Positions 26,924 through 62,098 of a stretch of DNA of 64,000 nt are shown in pieces. The notes beneath the pieces were generated by a model. The model made no database searches. It worked only from the letters and a program-made list of their open reading frames with translations, and was not told where the DNA came from. Where the stretch lies: the NCBI RefSeq assembly GCF_007995015.1, contig NZ_VORB01000002.1, forward strand, positions 248,001-312,000, given 5' to 3'. The translations under genes and the position numbers were made by a program. Numbering within the stretch: position 1 is the first letter of the stretch; every line of letters starts with the position of its first letter. The stretch is from Luteibaculum oceani (GTDB lineage: Bacteria > Bacteroidota > Bacteroidia > Flavobacteriales_D > Luteibaculaceae).

Positions 26924-29017
26924 TTATAGCTTCATGCCAACATGTTGCATGACAAATGCCCATTGGTCGGCGAATTCTTCTACCTGTTTTTCTACGGGTT
27001 TTCCAGCTCCGTGGCCAGCGTTTTTATCTACGCGTAGTAAAATGGGTTCGTTTCCTTTTTGATGCGCCTGCAAAGTTGCTGCAAACTTGAAAGAGTGTGC
27101 AGGTACAACCCTGTCATCATGATCTCCTGTAATTACCATTGTAGCGGGATATTCGATTTCCTTCACATTGTGAATGGGGGAGTATCCTTTTAGGTAATCA
27201 AACATTTCCTTGCTTTCATCACTTCTTCCGTAATCTCCTGCCCATGCCCATCCAATGGTAAACTCATGGTATTTAAGCATGTCTAAAACCCCAACTTTTG
27301 GAAGTGCAACGGCAAATAAATCTGGTCTTTGTGTTAACACGGCTCCAATAAGTAAGCCTCCGTTACTACGACCGTGAACCGCCATTTTCTCCTTAGATGT
27401 GTATCCTTCCTTTTGAAGATATTCTGCAGCAGCGATGAAATCATCGAAAACATTCTGCTTGTTCATCTTGGTTCCTGCTTGGTGCCAAGCCTCACCGTAT
27501 TCGCTTCCACCTCTAATATTGGCTACAGCGTAAATACCACCAGCATTTAAAAAGGCCATGCGATCTGGTTTGTAATGTGGTTGTATAGATATATTAAATC
27601 CTCCATAGGCATAGAGAAAGCAAGGGGTGTTCGGTGATTTTTTCAGTCCCTTTTTCATGACCAAGAATAGGGGAATTTTTGTGCCATCTTTTGAGTTGTA
27701 GAATTTTTGTTCTACGGTGTAATCCGCTGGGTTGAATGGAAGTTGTACCTCCTTAAACGGCTCTGGTTTTTTCGTAAAATCCTTATACACATAAACGCTA
27801 TTCGGATTTACATACCCTTCATAGGTGAAATACAAATGTTTTTGTTCCTTATCAAAGCGTAAACCACCAATATTCCCCATTCCTGGTAGGGCCAACTCCG
27901 ACAACTCGTTATTCTCTAGATTTAACAAATAAAGCTTGTTAACCACATCTTGTAAGTAGTTTAAAACCAATCCTTTATGAGTGAGTTTAGCGCCTTGGAG
28001 CAGTGATTCTTTCTCTTCTACAATAACTTTCCAGTTTTGCTTGTCAGGATTATTTGGATCCACCCAAATAATTTGGTTGTTGGGCGCTTTTGCGTTGGTA
28101 ATAAAAAGAAAACCTTTATTCCAGTTTCCTAGATAGTTAAAGTCATTGTCGAACCCACTAACCATGGTAGTGAAATCCGTCTTACCTTTTTCTCTGAAAA
28201 GCACGTTGTTGCCACTGGTGCTTTGAGATCCGTAGATGAAAAGGAATTTTTTGTCATCATCAAGTTCTGCTCCAAAGGTTTTTTGCGCATTTTCTTTATC
28301 CTCGAAAACTAAACTGCTTTTATTCTCCGCTAAATTGTGGTAATAGATTTTGTGGTATTCATTCTTGGCAGAATACTCATTACCCTCTTTAGGAGCGGGG
28401 AAAGAAGCATAGTAAAAGCCTTTTTCATCCCAGGTAATGCCCGAGAATTTCACCCATTTTATCTCGTTAGGTAATTGTTTGCCTGTGCTAATTTCTTTAA
28501 CCTTAATAGTAACCCAATCGGATCCAGAAGCGGAAACTCCGTAGGCCAGATATTTTCCATCTTTAGATACACTCCAGGCGTTTAGCGAAGCCGTTCCATC
28601 TTCTGAAAAAGTATTGGGGTCCAGTAAAACCGATTCCTCTCCGTCCTTGATCAACTTTAGAACCGAGTGGTTCATTTTACCGTCGTTATAACTGTATACC
28701 AGTCCAGCTTTGGTTCTTTTAGGTGAACTGTAGCGCTCATAATCCCAATATTTGGGAAGCATTTCTACAAGCTTTTTACGTTGAGGGATATCTTTAAGGT
28801 AGGATTGAGTTAATTGATTTTGTTGATCGACCCAAGCCATGGTTTCCTCACTATAATCGTCTTCGAGCCAGGCGTAGGGGTCTGCAATTTGTTCTCCAAA
28901 GTAGGTTTTAGTAGAATCTACTTTTTTAGTTTCGGGATAATTTAAGCTGGATGCTTGGTCCTTGCATCCGAATAACAAAAGGGCTACAGCTCCTAAACTT
29001 AGATATTTTGCTTTCAT
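26924..29017 (-). CDS. Prolyl oligopeptidase family serine peptidase (S9A), lipoprotein
   Basis: 697 residues. A lipoprotein signal (MKAKYLSLGAVALLLFGCKD, lipobox Cys at about residue 18) is followed by the S9 N-terminal beta-propeller (DPYAWLEDDYSEETMAWVDQ) to about residue 420 and the alpha/beta-hydrolase domain. The catalytic triad is visible as Ser in GRSNGGLLIG, Asp in TGDHDDRVVP and His in AGHGAGKP. It cuts short peptides after proline. The protein is probably periplasmic or outer-membrane anchored. It is the last gene of an overlapping minus-strand run; the cyclophilin stop lies 2 bp upstream. Confidence 0.92.
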   Translation of the reverse strand: MKAKYLSLGAVALLLFGCKDQASSLNYPETKKVDSTKTYFGEQIADPYAWLEDDYSEETMAWVDQQNQLTQSYLKDIPQRKKLVEMLPKYWDYERYSSPKRTKAGLVYSYNDGKMNHSVLKLIKDGEESVLLDPNTFSEDGTASLNAWSVSKDGKYLAYGVSASGSDWVTIKVKEISTGKQLPNEIKWVKFSGITWDEKGFYYASFPAPKEGNEYSAKNEYHKIYYHNLAENKSSLVFEDKENAQKTFGAELDDDKKFLFIYGSQSTSGNNVLFREKGKTDFTTMVSGFDNDFNYLGNWNKGFLFITNAKAPNNQIIWVDPNNPDKQNWKVIVEEKESLLQGAKLTHKGLVLNYLQDVVNKLYLLNLENNELSELALPGMGNIGGLRFDKEQKHLYFTYEGYVNPNSVYVYKDFTKKPEPFKEVQLPFNPADYTVEQKFYNSKDGTKIPLFLVMKKGLKKSPNTPCFLYAYGGFNISIQPHYKPDRMAFLNAGGIYAVANIRGGSEYGEAWHQAGTKMNKQNVFDDFIAAAEYLQKEGYTSKEKMAVHGRSNGGLLIGAVLTQRPDLFAVALPKVGVLDMLKYHEFTIGWAWAGDYGRSDESKEMFDYLKGYSPIHNVKEIEYPATMVITGDHDDRVVPAHSFKFAATLQAHQKGNEPILLRVDKNAGHGAGKPVEKQVEEFADQWAFVMQHVGMKL

Positions 29018-59107: not shown

Positions 59108-61384
59108 TTAAAAAATCCATTTAAGCCCTAAATAAGTTCTACGACCCTGGTTGGGCGCGTATACATAGCTAGGGTCAAATGTTAATGCATTGGGATTGGA
59201 TGGGGTTGCCACCGCATTTCCTTCGCCATCAAAGGTTACTCCTTTGTCAAATGGATCAAAAGCTCGAGCTATTGAGTTAGCTGCCGGTGTAAAGTTTAGT
59301 AGGTTTTTTATCCCTCCATATAATTCAATGTTCTTAAATCCCTTGTAGGAAAAGTTTAGGTTTTGGATGCTCCACCAAGGGCTTTCTTTTGGTCTTGGAT
59401 CTAGTTCTCCAAGAGTTGGTAATAACATAGGGCCATATAAATTACCGGTATAATCTATTTCCATCTTCCAACTTCTTATAGGGTAAGAAATGGTCCAAGT
59501 TCCTGTCCAGTTTTCACTTAATAACGGACGAGATTTAACCATGCTGCTACCCTCCTGCTCCATCAGAAAAACATCTATATAGCTCACTCCTGCTAAGATG
59601 GATAACCCCGATTTTAAAACGGCATTGAGGTTTGCCGAAATCCCTCTAGAAACCGAGTAGTTATCTAGATTTTCATACCTAATTTCATTGGGATTGCTTT
59701 CGTAATCTGGTATGATTTGATTAGAAAAATGGGTGTACCATGAATTGAAATCCACTCCAAATCGATCTCCCGTTAGGCTGTAAAAATGCTGCTCATAATT
59801 AAGGTTTAAGCTTTTACTCTGCTCAGGTTTAATATTAGGAGCAATTACAACTTCTCTGGCACCTGTTAATGCGGCATGGTCTTCAGTAAAAATGTTTACC
59901 ACTCTAAAACCCGTACCACCGTTAAGGCGGATTGTACTTTGATCGGTAGGATTAAACTTAACTGCAAACCGAGGGGTGAAAATATTTCCATGATTAGATT
60001 GATGGTCTAACCTAGCTCCTGCTAACCAACTCCATTTTTTGGATAACTCTTGTTGAACCTGTACAAATACTCCTGGAATATATGTTGCAGATGGATTGTT
60101 GCTAACAGTACCTCCAAAATCTTTTTCGGTAGCGGTGGTATTGTCATCGTATATGTTAAACCTATAGGTTAACCCACTTGTAATCCCAATGGAGTTAACT
60201 TTTGTATTATGAACCAACTGTCCAAATCCTATTTGTTGTGTGGCATTGTACGATGTAGTTCCGTAAAACGAGCTTTGTTCATGGCGGTTATAGGAAGTTT
60301 GTAATTGTAAGTTTTTAATGGATGGAATATCGTACAGAGATACTAGCTCAATACGTTCAGTTTGTATGGTTTCTCCGTAAACAGAATCACCGCCTGCAAA
60401 TTCTGGTGTCCAATTCATTTCTCCACCCCATCTATCCTCGTAAAAATACCTTGCAGCTACAGAAAAGTGCTTTCCGTTTTTACGATCAACTGCAAGTTTG
60501 TTAAATAAAGATATGCGATTTTGTAGGGTTATATCGGTGAAATTATCCCCGTTGTTATCCTTTGGGTTGTTGTATTGAAAATGATTAATTCCAGTAAGTA
60601 AGTTCACTCCTTTTCCTATTGGTGTATTTAAAGATAAATCGGTATTGGTCTCTAGCCATGAAGTGGCATAAAAGTCTAGTTCCCCACCAAACTTGGCGTT
60701 GGGCAATTTGGTTATGATGTTAATTACACCTCCCAAAGCTTCGGAACCATACAAGGCAGATGATGGTCCCTTTACAACCTCCACTTGATCCAAAATACCA
60801 TTGGGTATTCCGCTTAATCCATAAACTGTAGATAAACCGCTAACAATAGGCATTCCGTCAATGAGAATCATGGTGTAAGGCCCTTCAAGCCCATTAATGT
60901 GGATATCCCCAGTATTGCACACATTGCAGTTAATTTGAGGTCTAACTCCATTAATTCGCTCCAATGATTCGAAAATATTTGGTGCTGGATTTTTGGTAAG
61001 GATTGATTTTGTATACACTTCTACCGGAACGGGGCTATCCAGTTTTTTAACCGGATTTAGGGTTCCTGTGACTACCACCTCATTTAATTCAAGGTTGGGT
61101 TCAAGATTAATATTTAAATACTGGTTTTTATTAAGCCTTATCTCCTTTGGTTTAAAACCGACAAAGCTTACTAATATTTCAACGGGGTATTCGATTTCCC
61201 CAAACTTAAGGACAAACTCTCCGTTTTTATCGGTTGTGGTCCCAGTCTTAAATTTTTTACTGTAAATATTGGCACCAACTATTGCTTCGCCATTTGAAAG
61301 AACTTTTCCTGTTATATCTATCTGACCCATTAGGATAATGGGACAAAAGAGTAAATAAAATAGGCTGGTTAATTGTGTCTTCAT
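59108..61384 (-). CDS. TonB-dependent outer-membrane receptor, probable metal transport
   Basis: 758 residues. A signal peptide (MKTQLTSLFYLLFCPIILMG) precedes a carboxypeptidase-D-like domain (ITGKVLSNGEAIVGANIYSK), a plug domain (about 105-225) and a beta barrel ending in WIF. The plug contains a cysteine pair in INCNVCNTGDIHINGL, then ILIDGMPIVSGLSTVYGLSG and VEVVKGPSSALYGSEALGGV. The gene is divergent from a DtxR/MntR-type repressor across 36 bp, with a palindrome in its promoter, so iron, manganese or a related metal complex is the inferred cargo. Cobalamin or haem are alternatives. Confidence 0.85.
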   Translation of the reverse strand: MKTQLTSLFYLLFCPIILMGQIDITGKVLSNGEAIVGANIYSKKFKTGTTTDKNGEFVLKFGEIEYPVEILVSFVGFKPKEIRLNKNQYLNINLEPNLELNEVVVTGTLNPVKKLDSPVPVEVYTKSILTKNPAPNIFESLERINGVRPQINCNVCNTGDIHINGLEGPYTMILIDGMPIVSGLSTVYGLSGIPNGILDQVEVVKGPSSALYGSEALGGVINIITKLPNAKFGGELDFYATSWLETNTDLSLNTPIGKGVNLLTGINHFQYNNPKDNNGDNFTDITLQNRISLFNKLAVDRKNGKHFSVAARYFYEDRWGGEMNWTPEFAGGDSVYGETIQTERIELVSLYDIPSIKNLQLQTSYNRHEQSSFYGTTSYNATQQIGFGQLVHNTKVNSIGITSGLTYRFNIYDDNTTATEKDFGGTVSNNPSATYIPGVFVQVQQELSKKWSWLAGARLDHQSNHGNIFTPRFAVKFNPTDQSTIRLNGGTGFRVVNIFTEDHAALTGAREVVIAPNIKPEQSKSLNLNYEQHFYSLTGDRFGVDFNSWYTHFSNQIIPDYESNPNEIRYENLDNYSVSRGISANLNAVLKSGLSILAGVSYIDVFLMEQEGSSMVKSRPLLSENWTGTWTISYPIRSWKMEIDYTGNLYGPMLLPTLGELDPRPKESPWWSIQNLNFSYKGFKNIELYGGIKNLLNFTPAANSIARAFDPFDKGVTFDGEGNAVATPSNPNALTFDPSYVYAPNQGRRTYLGLKWIF

Positions 61385-61401
61385 AAATTTGTTAACTGAG
61401 G

Positions 61402-61409
61402 CAAAATTA
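61402..61409 (-). promoter_or_regulatory. -7 box TAATTTTG of the TonB receptor gene
   Basis: Perfect TAnnTTTG on the minus strand, 17 nt before the ATG at 61384 and 4 bp from the edge of the metal-regulator palindrome. Confidence 0.55.
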
Positions 61410-61413
61410 TAAA

Positions 61414-61429
61414 GTTAGACATGACTAAC
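61414..61429. promoter_or_regulatory. Palindromic DtxR-type operator (GTTAG-N6-CTAAC) overlapping the repressor start codon
   Basis: Arms GTTAG and CTAAC flank ACATGA; the centre is itself nearly symmetric (14 of 16 positions). The arms resemble the core of DtxR/IdeR boxes. It covers the ATG of the DtxR-family gene (61421-61423) and sits directly upstream of the receptor's -7 box. Binding would block both divergent genes. Confidence 0.55.
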
Positions 61430-62098
61430 AAAATTAAAAAGGATAGACTTACAAAAAACGAAGAGGATTATCTCAAAGCCATATTTTATTTAACGGCTGA
61501 ACAGCAGGAAGAAAAGGTCGGAACCAATAAGCTAGCTGAGTTTCTTGAATTATCCCCTGCTTCGGTTAATAGCATGGTTAAAAAACTGAAGGGAAAAGGA
61601 TTTCTTAATTACGAACGTTACGGTAAGCTAGAATTGAGTGAAGACGGGTTTAAAATTGCCGTTAACCTTATTAGAAAGCACAGGCTTTGGGAAACCTTTT
61701 TATATAATCACCTAAATTTTGGTTGGGATGAAGTACATGAGGTTGCAGAGCAGCTAGAACATATCCAAAGTGAAAAACTGATGAAAGAATTGGACGCTTT
61801 TCTGGGGTTTCCCGGTACAGACCCGCATGGTGATGTAATTCCTGGTGCTGATGGAAGCTACAAAATCCCAGTAAAAAAGACCTTATCCGAAATGACCGCT
61901 GGGGCAGTATGTAAGCTGGTTTCCGTAAAAGATGGTTCTGTTCAATTCCTACAATATTTAACGGAACTAGGATTGGAGTTGAGTGCACCGATAGAAATTC
62001 TTGAAAAAAGAGATTTTGACGGCAGTATGTCATTAAAAGTGAATAATAAGCGTGTAAATGTCTCTAAAAAGTTCACCCAAAATATTTATGTCATATAA
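61421..62098 (+). CDS. DtxR/MntR-family metal-dependent transcriptional repressor
   Basis: 225 residues. N-terminal winged HTH (EEDYLKAIFYL, TNKLAEFLELSPASVNSMVK) is followed by the dimerisation/metal-binding domain (NLIRKHRLWETFLYNHLNFG, DEVHEVAEQLEHIQSEKL, FPGTDPHGDVIPG) and a C-terminal FeoA-like SH3 domain (about 150-225). Such proteins bind Fe or Mn and then repress uptake genes. The neighbouring divergent TonB receptor is its likely target, and it probably represses itself via the palindrome over its start codon. Fe versus Mn specificity is undecided. Confidence 0.88.
   Translation: MTNKIKKDRLTKNEEDYLKAIFYLTAEQQEEKVGTNKLAEFLELSPASVNSMVKKLKGKGFLNYERYGKLELSEDGFKIAVNLIRKHRLWETFLYNHLNFGWDEVHEVAEQLEHIQSEKLMKELDAFLGFPGTDPHGDVIPGADGSYKIPVKKTLSEMTAGAVCKLVSVKDGSVQFLQYLTELGLELSAPIEILEKRDFDGSMSLKVNNKRVNVSKKFTQNIYVI

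Follow-up and report, generated by a model that had tools for sequence, protein, structure and literature searches.

In the 64,000-nt stretch of Luteibaculum oceani DNA analysed here (the window), a gene for a TonB-dependent receptor and a gene for a DtxR-family repressor diverge from a gap of only 36 bp (nt 61385–61420), and a palindrome lies across the repressor end of this gap. The question raised by the locus is whether the palindrome is an operator and, if so, which of the two genes it controls, which protein binds it and which metal is sensed. A first-pass annotation had proposed that a single repressor dimer could shut off both genes. The reading favoured here, with a probability of roughly 0.8, is that the palindrome serves as operator for the MntR-like repressor whose gene occupies nt 61421–62098; this protein would shut the receptor gene off, likely in response to Mn2+, and would also regulate itself. 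The model draws on the sequence, its conservation, the geometry of the site, the metal-ligand residues and a second site, all observed directly; operator binding, the identity of the metal, the direction of regulation and the receptor substrate are what we infer.

Geometry of the palindrome and the flanking promoters

The palindrome GTTAGACATGACTAAC (nt 61414–61429, assigned to neither strand; GTTAG-ACATGA-CTAAC) is regarded as a predicted MntR-type box from its sequence, its conservation and its fit to the consensus KTTAGAYWWRTCTAAM (see below), from which it differs at one position. Seven of its eight pairs are complementary, with A61419/A61424 as the exception. The palindrome spans the repressor ATG (nt 61421, with no start codon before it in its frame) together with codons 2 and 3, while the receptor ATG lies at nt 61384–61382 on the minus strand. 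The 36-bp gap, the near-perfect GTTAG-N6-CTAAC over the repressor ATG and its abutment on the -7 box of the receptor, all described in the first-pass annotation, were confirmed in the sequence, the palindrome ending 4 bp from the predicted -7 box TAATTTTG (nt 61409–61402, minus strand).

The -33 consensus of promoters of this kind is well established. The accompanying sigma-A box, TAnnTTTG, is located at -12 to -5 in Flavobacterium psychrophilum (PMC9723704). TAATTTTG was found as a match to this pattern, and a TTTTG at nt 61429–61433 (minus strand) provides a predicted -33 element in the arrangement TTG-N19-TAATTTTG, with transcription of the receptor gene predicted to start near nt 61397. 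The palindrome, at about -32 to -17, sits exactly between the two elements, and the G at nt 61429 (minus strand) belongs to the palindrome arm and to the -33 element alike, so that the operator fills the spacer of the receptor promoter. On the plus strand, a possible -7 box of the repressor gene, TAAATTTG (nt 61384–61391), was found by its pattern. Inspection of the sequence upstream of it revealed no clear -33 element, and this promoter is for that reason tentative; its transcript is predicted to start near nt 61396, placing the palindrome at about +19 to +34.

These positions suggest how the switch could work. When the cell has sufficient metal (most likely Mn2+), the metal-loaded repressor would bind nt 61414–61429. 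It would then occupy the -33/-7 spacer of the receptor promoter, turning the receptor off, and would cover the start region of its own gene, giving a negative autoregulation that here would act downstream of the predicted start site of the repressor transcript.

The overlap between palindrome and start codon, to which the first-pass annotation had drawn attention, is present but is not a trait of the family. Among the loci examined it is shared only with one from Aquimarina (L004), where the repressor has the same N-terminus (MTNK) and the divergent side holds a gene for a protein of outer-membrane type and an operon for a troA-like transporter; for this reason the overlap was rejected as a general design. 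A further candidate, L016, was discarded because in L037, a locus similar to it, the ATG in question is directly followed by a stop codon. The overlap is best seen as a compaction of the 36-bp gap, and an effect on the expression of the repressor itself is possible.

Conservation of the box at repressor and receptor genes

Related genomes had been named as the place to look for the palindrome, and it was recovered there on both sides of the gap. The pattern TTAGN6CTAA occurs within 250 bp upstream of 58 of 74 orthologous repressor genes, where about 0.5 would be expected from dinucleotide shuffles; the 74 regions are mutually related, and the ratio of 58 to 0.5 is not a probability. Conservation extends to two positions that the search pattern leaves free, position 6 being a pyrimidine and position 9 a purine in 116 of 118 half-site readings, and this yields the consensus KTTAGAYWWRTCTAAM. 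Four of the 16 misses (L009, L012, L072 and L078) come from loci with a same-strand arrangement, in which the repressor gene follows the receptor gene and would belong to its operon; each of these receptors has an upstream box. No box was found upstream of the repressor genes of L001, L002, L003 and L005 (three Ignavibacteriota and one other MAG), which are the orthologues closest in sequence (61–63%). Most Flavobacteriales orthologues are merely about 45–50% identical, and the closeness of these four is a possible sign of gene transfer.

The receptor (nt 59108–61384, minus strand; 758 aa; Pfam PF00593, PF07715 and PF13715) carries the motif CNVC in its plug (residues 153–156). A plug CxxC is present in all 25 orthologous receptors compared (L082–L106, including that of the window), and the box is found upstream of 23 of them, in most cases 4–5 bp or 7–10 bp from a TAnnTTTG box; in the other two, L089 and L101, it is degraded. 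The fetched stretch includes the repressor gene for 22 of the 25, divergent in 20 and downstream on the same strand in two (L083 and L087, the same places as L072 and L078), both of which have the box upstream of the receptor. Two further receptors, L086 and L093, have retained the box in fetched stretches that contain no repressor gene, and the genome of the former (G006) has no repressor orthologue at E ≤ 1e-20. Four distant receptor paralogues (L107, L109, L110 and L111) have neither the box nor the plug CxxC. Since the box is kept at receptors that have no adjacent divergent repressor gene and is absent from the paralogues, the receptor appears to be a target in itself.

It may then be asked whether the receptor promoter is the only target, the overlap with the repressor ATG having arisen as the gap shrank to 36 bp, with no autoregulation. 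This is a less likely reading, but one to be taken seriously: the box lies in a spacer flanked by good -33 and -7 elements, the promoter of the repressor gene lacks a clear -33 element, and a single other locus has the start-codon overlap. Against it, the repressor gene is the constant partner of the box across the family, also at loci, such as those of Pedobacter and Chitinophagaceae, whose vicinity yielded no such receptor, and L004 retains the overlap though its divergent genes differ. In the loci compared, the box also adjoins repressor orthologues that are followed by troA-like genes. Of the dual control suggested originally, the receptor promoter is the clear target, while autoregulation by the repressor is likely from the family pattern. 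At one locus the gene divergent from a repressor orthologue that has a GTTAG/CTAAC box encodes a TonB receptor of another kind (L054, nt 2–1414), whose plug lacks CxxC, and the receptor partner of a boxed repressor may therefore be exchangeable.

The repressor, its metal and a second site

MntR is distinguished from DtxR by Asp8 and Glu99, which replace Met and Cys. The repressor of the window (nt 61421–62098, plus strand; 225 aa) consists of a DNA-binding, a metal-binding/dimerisation and a FeoA domain (PF01325, PF02742 and PF04023), and all three Pfam models exceed their cut-offs, PF01325 with 55 bits and PF02742 with 100 bits. Its placement in the DtxR family, as first annotated, therefore stands, but its metal site is of the MntR rather than the DtxR type. 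Alignment with Bacillus subtilis MntR (sequence checked against PDB 1on1) pairs D16, H87, E110, E113 and H114 with D8, H77, E99, E102 and H103, so that Asp and Glu occupy the two discriminating positions, and the sensor is accordingly MntR-like. The sixth ligand, E11, is replaced by Lys19, as it is by Lys in 16 aligned relatives, leaving five of six ligands in place. The closest NCBIfam model is likewise MntR (NF047407), with a score of 159 bits that falls short of the cut-off of 350; this score and the Lys are the reasons for writing "MntR-like". The best guess for the metal, judged from the sequence, is Mn2+, with Fe2+ also possible.

TonB receptors usually carry iron complexes or vitamin B12, and one alternative is an iron sensor of the DtxR/IdeR kind, controlling a receptor for ferric siderophores or haem. 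The window receptor does resemble haem and siderophore receptor models, weakly and far under their cut-offs. In addition, the related PgMntR of Porphyromonas gingivalis binds both Mn2+ and Fe2+, according to excerpts of its published description (PMC4805248). The presence of Asp and Glu in place of Met and Cys, the ties of the box to ZnuA/TroA-type transporters and a separate Fur homologue (the genome has one Fur-family protein) nevertheless make an iron sensor improbable.

Exact GTTAGN6CTAAC occurs twice in the L. oceani genome that holds the window (G000). The other copy (G000:C2:329244–329259) precedes by about 55 nt an operon for an ABC transporter of the Mn/Zn type, with genes for a binding protein of the ZnuA/TroA type, an ATPase and two ABC-3 permeases. 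With the same box at this operon, uptake across the outer and the inner membrane would come under one switch. One of the permeases (L043 9000–10253, on G000:C2 outside the window) bears a C-terminal DtxR-type metal-binding domain, and this fusion and the window repressor are the only PF02742 proteins found in the genome. We take the fusion to resemble YtgCR of Chlamydia, the YtgR part of which acts as a regulator.

It follows that the fused domain, being the sole other PF02742 protein and encoded in the operon that follows the second exact site, has to be considered as the main binder in place of the stand-alone repressor. This is very unlikely, as the box tracks the stand-alone gene at many loci with no troA-like gene detected close by, and Pfam detects in the fusion the metal/dimerisation domain only, with no PF01325. 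The fused domain could bind the site as well, and this second DtxR-type domain counts against the operator model, as do the four repressor genes without a box (L001, L002, L003 and L005), the exchange of E11 for Lys, the boxed receptor of G006 in a genome that yielded no repressor orthologue, and the tentative promoter of the repressor gene. Several other loci show a second DtxR-like match about 2.6–3 kb after the repressor or troA-like gene.

The count of exact copies is unremarkable by itself, since base composition predicts 0.07 occurrences in 64 kb and about 3.4 in the 2.92-Mb genome, against the two found. Nor is there genome-wide enrichment, with 51 matches at one mismatch or fewer compared with 80 for the reversed control, and the case accordingly rests on position and conservation. 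That the palindrome is a chance match, as these counts alone would permit, can be dismissed almost completely, given that it is conserved in the same position next to orthologous genes and that the other exact copy lies in the leader of an operon for metal transport. Found at repressor loci, at receptors and at the ABC operon of its own genome, it is real and conserved, and very probably a working operator of a known kind.

Within the window, nt 61414–61429 has the top score with the box matrix, which was built with this site included. TTTAAGCATGTCTAAA (nt 27272–27287) also scores well; it lies inside a prolyl-oligopeptidase-like gene and is probably a chance match. Near-matches inside genes (L045 and L121) and where two glycosyltransferase genes meet (L046) were likewise treated as chance. 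As for further targets, FeoB was set aside with no match to PF07664 in G000, and the sole distant Nramp locus has no box.

Relation to known manganese systems

In Stenotrophomonas maltophilia, a TonB receptor with CQNC in its plug has a predicted MntR box between its promoter hexamers and is followed by a thioredoxin-fold protein (PMC13217887, 2026). The window locus shares with this module the MntR-type regulator near a TonB receptor, the box between promoter elements and the plug CxxC. Among the 25 relatives, 12 have a gene for a small thioredoxin-fold CxxC protein, apparently secreted, directly after the receptor gene (e.g. L083 3762–4220 and L087 3735–4178, with similar places in ten others). 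No such gene follows the receptor of the window, where a PAS/histidine-kinase gene is found instead, and the locus is for this reason not counted as a member of a CxxC-receptor/thioredoxin module. Besides this and the different phylum, the plug motif is CNVC rather than CQNC, the box is modelled with 16 bp compared with 25 bp in S. maltophilia, and an ABC importer takes the place of MntH (PMC13217887). The exact motif CQNC does occur in two more distant receptors, L035 and L075, which stand beside MntR-like genes and boxes. Going by the description of the Stenotrophomonas module, the two groups appear to resemble each other in architecture and regulation.

In much of the Bacteroidota the palindrome has been kept next to these same genes, which points to a circuit for manganese uptake. 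A broader proposal, for and against which the odds seem to us about even, is that there is a manganese regulon in Bacteroidota, with an MntR-like repressor in control of a TonB receptor that has CxxC in its plug, imports Mn2+ across the outer membrane and often has a thioredoxin-fold partner; this would be the functional module of Stenotrophomonas recurring across phyla. While the operator is a fresh example of an already known type of control, the wider link to the CxxC-plug receptor is the more interesting part: a widespread receptor tied to Mn-type regulation makes outer-membrane manganese import testable in Bacteroidota. Likewise, KTTAGAYWWRTCTAAM provides a concrete predicted binding site for reading their metal regulons. 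In the open-access literature, to which the search was confined (subscription papers and regulon databases lay outside its scope), no such site was found described for Bacteroidota.

Among characterised regulators, PgMntR is, like the window repressor, a Bacteroidota DtxR-family protein with FeoA, although excerpts of its description give it two FeoA domains and Cys108, compared with one FeoA domain and Glu110 here (PMC4805248). The same excerpts report that it binds the promoter of an operon containing its own gene and a manganese transporter, and that the equivalents of Asp8 and Glu99 were mutated to shift its metal preference; neither a box sequence nor a TonB receptor was found in them (PMC4805248). 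B. subtilis MntR (PDB 1on1), in which five of the six primary ligands are those of the window repressor, has no FeoA domain and retains the Glu at position 11. The streptococcal manganese regulators SloR and ScaR (PDB 5cvi and 3hrs), which contain FeoA, share all three domains and nearly full-length similarity with the window repressor, but belong to Gram-positive hosts without outer-membrane receptors.
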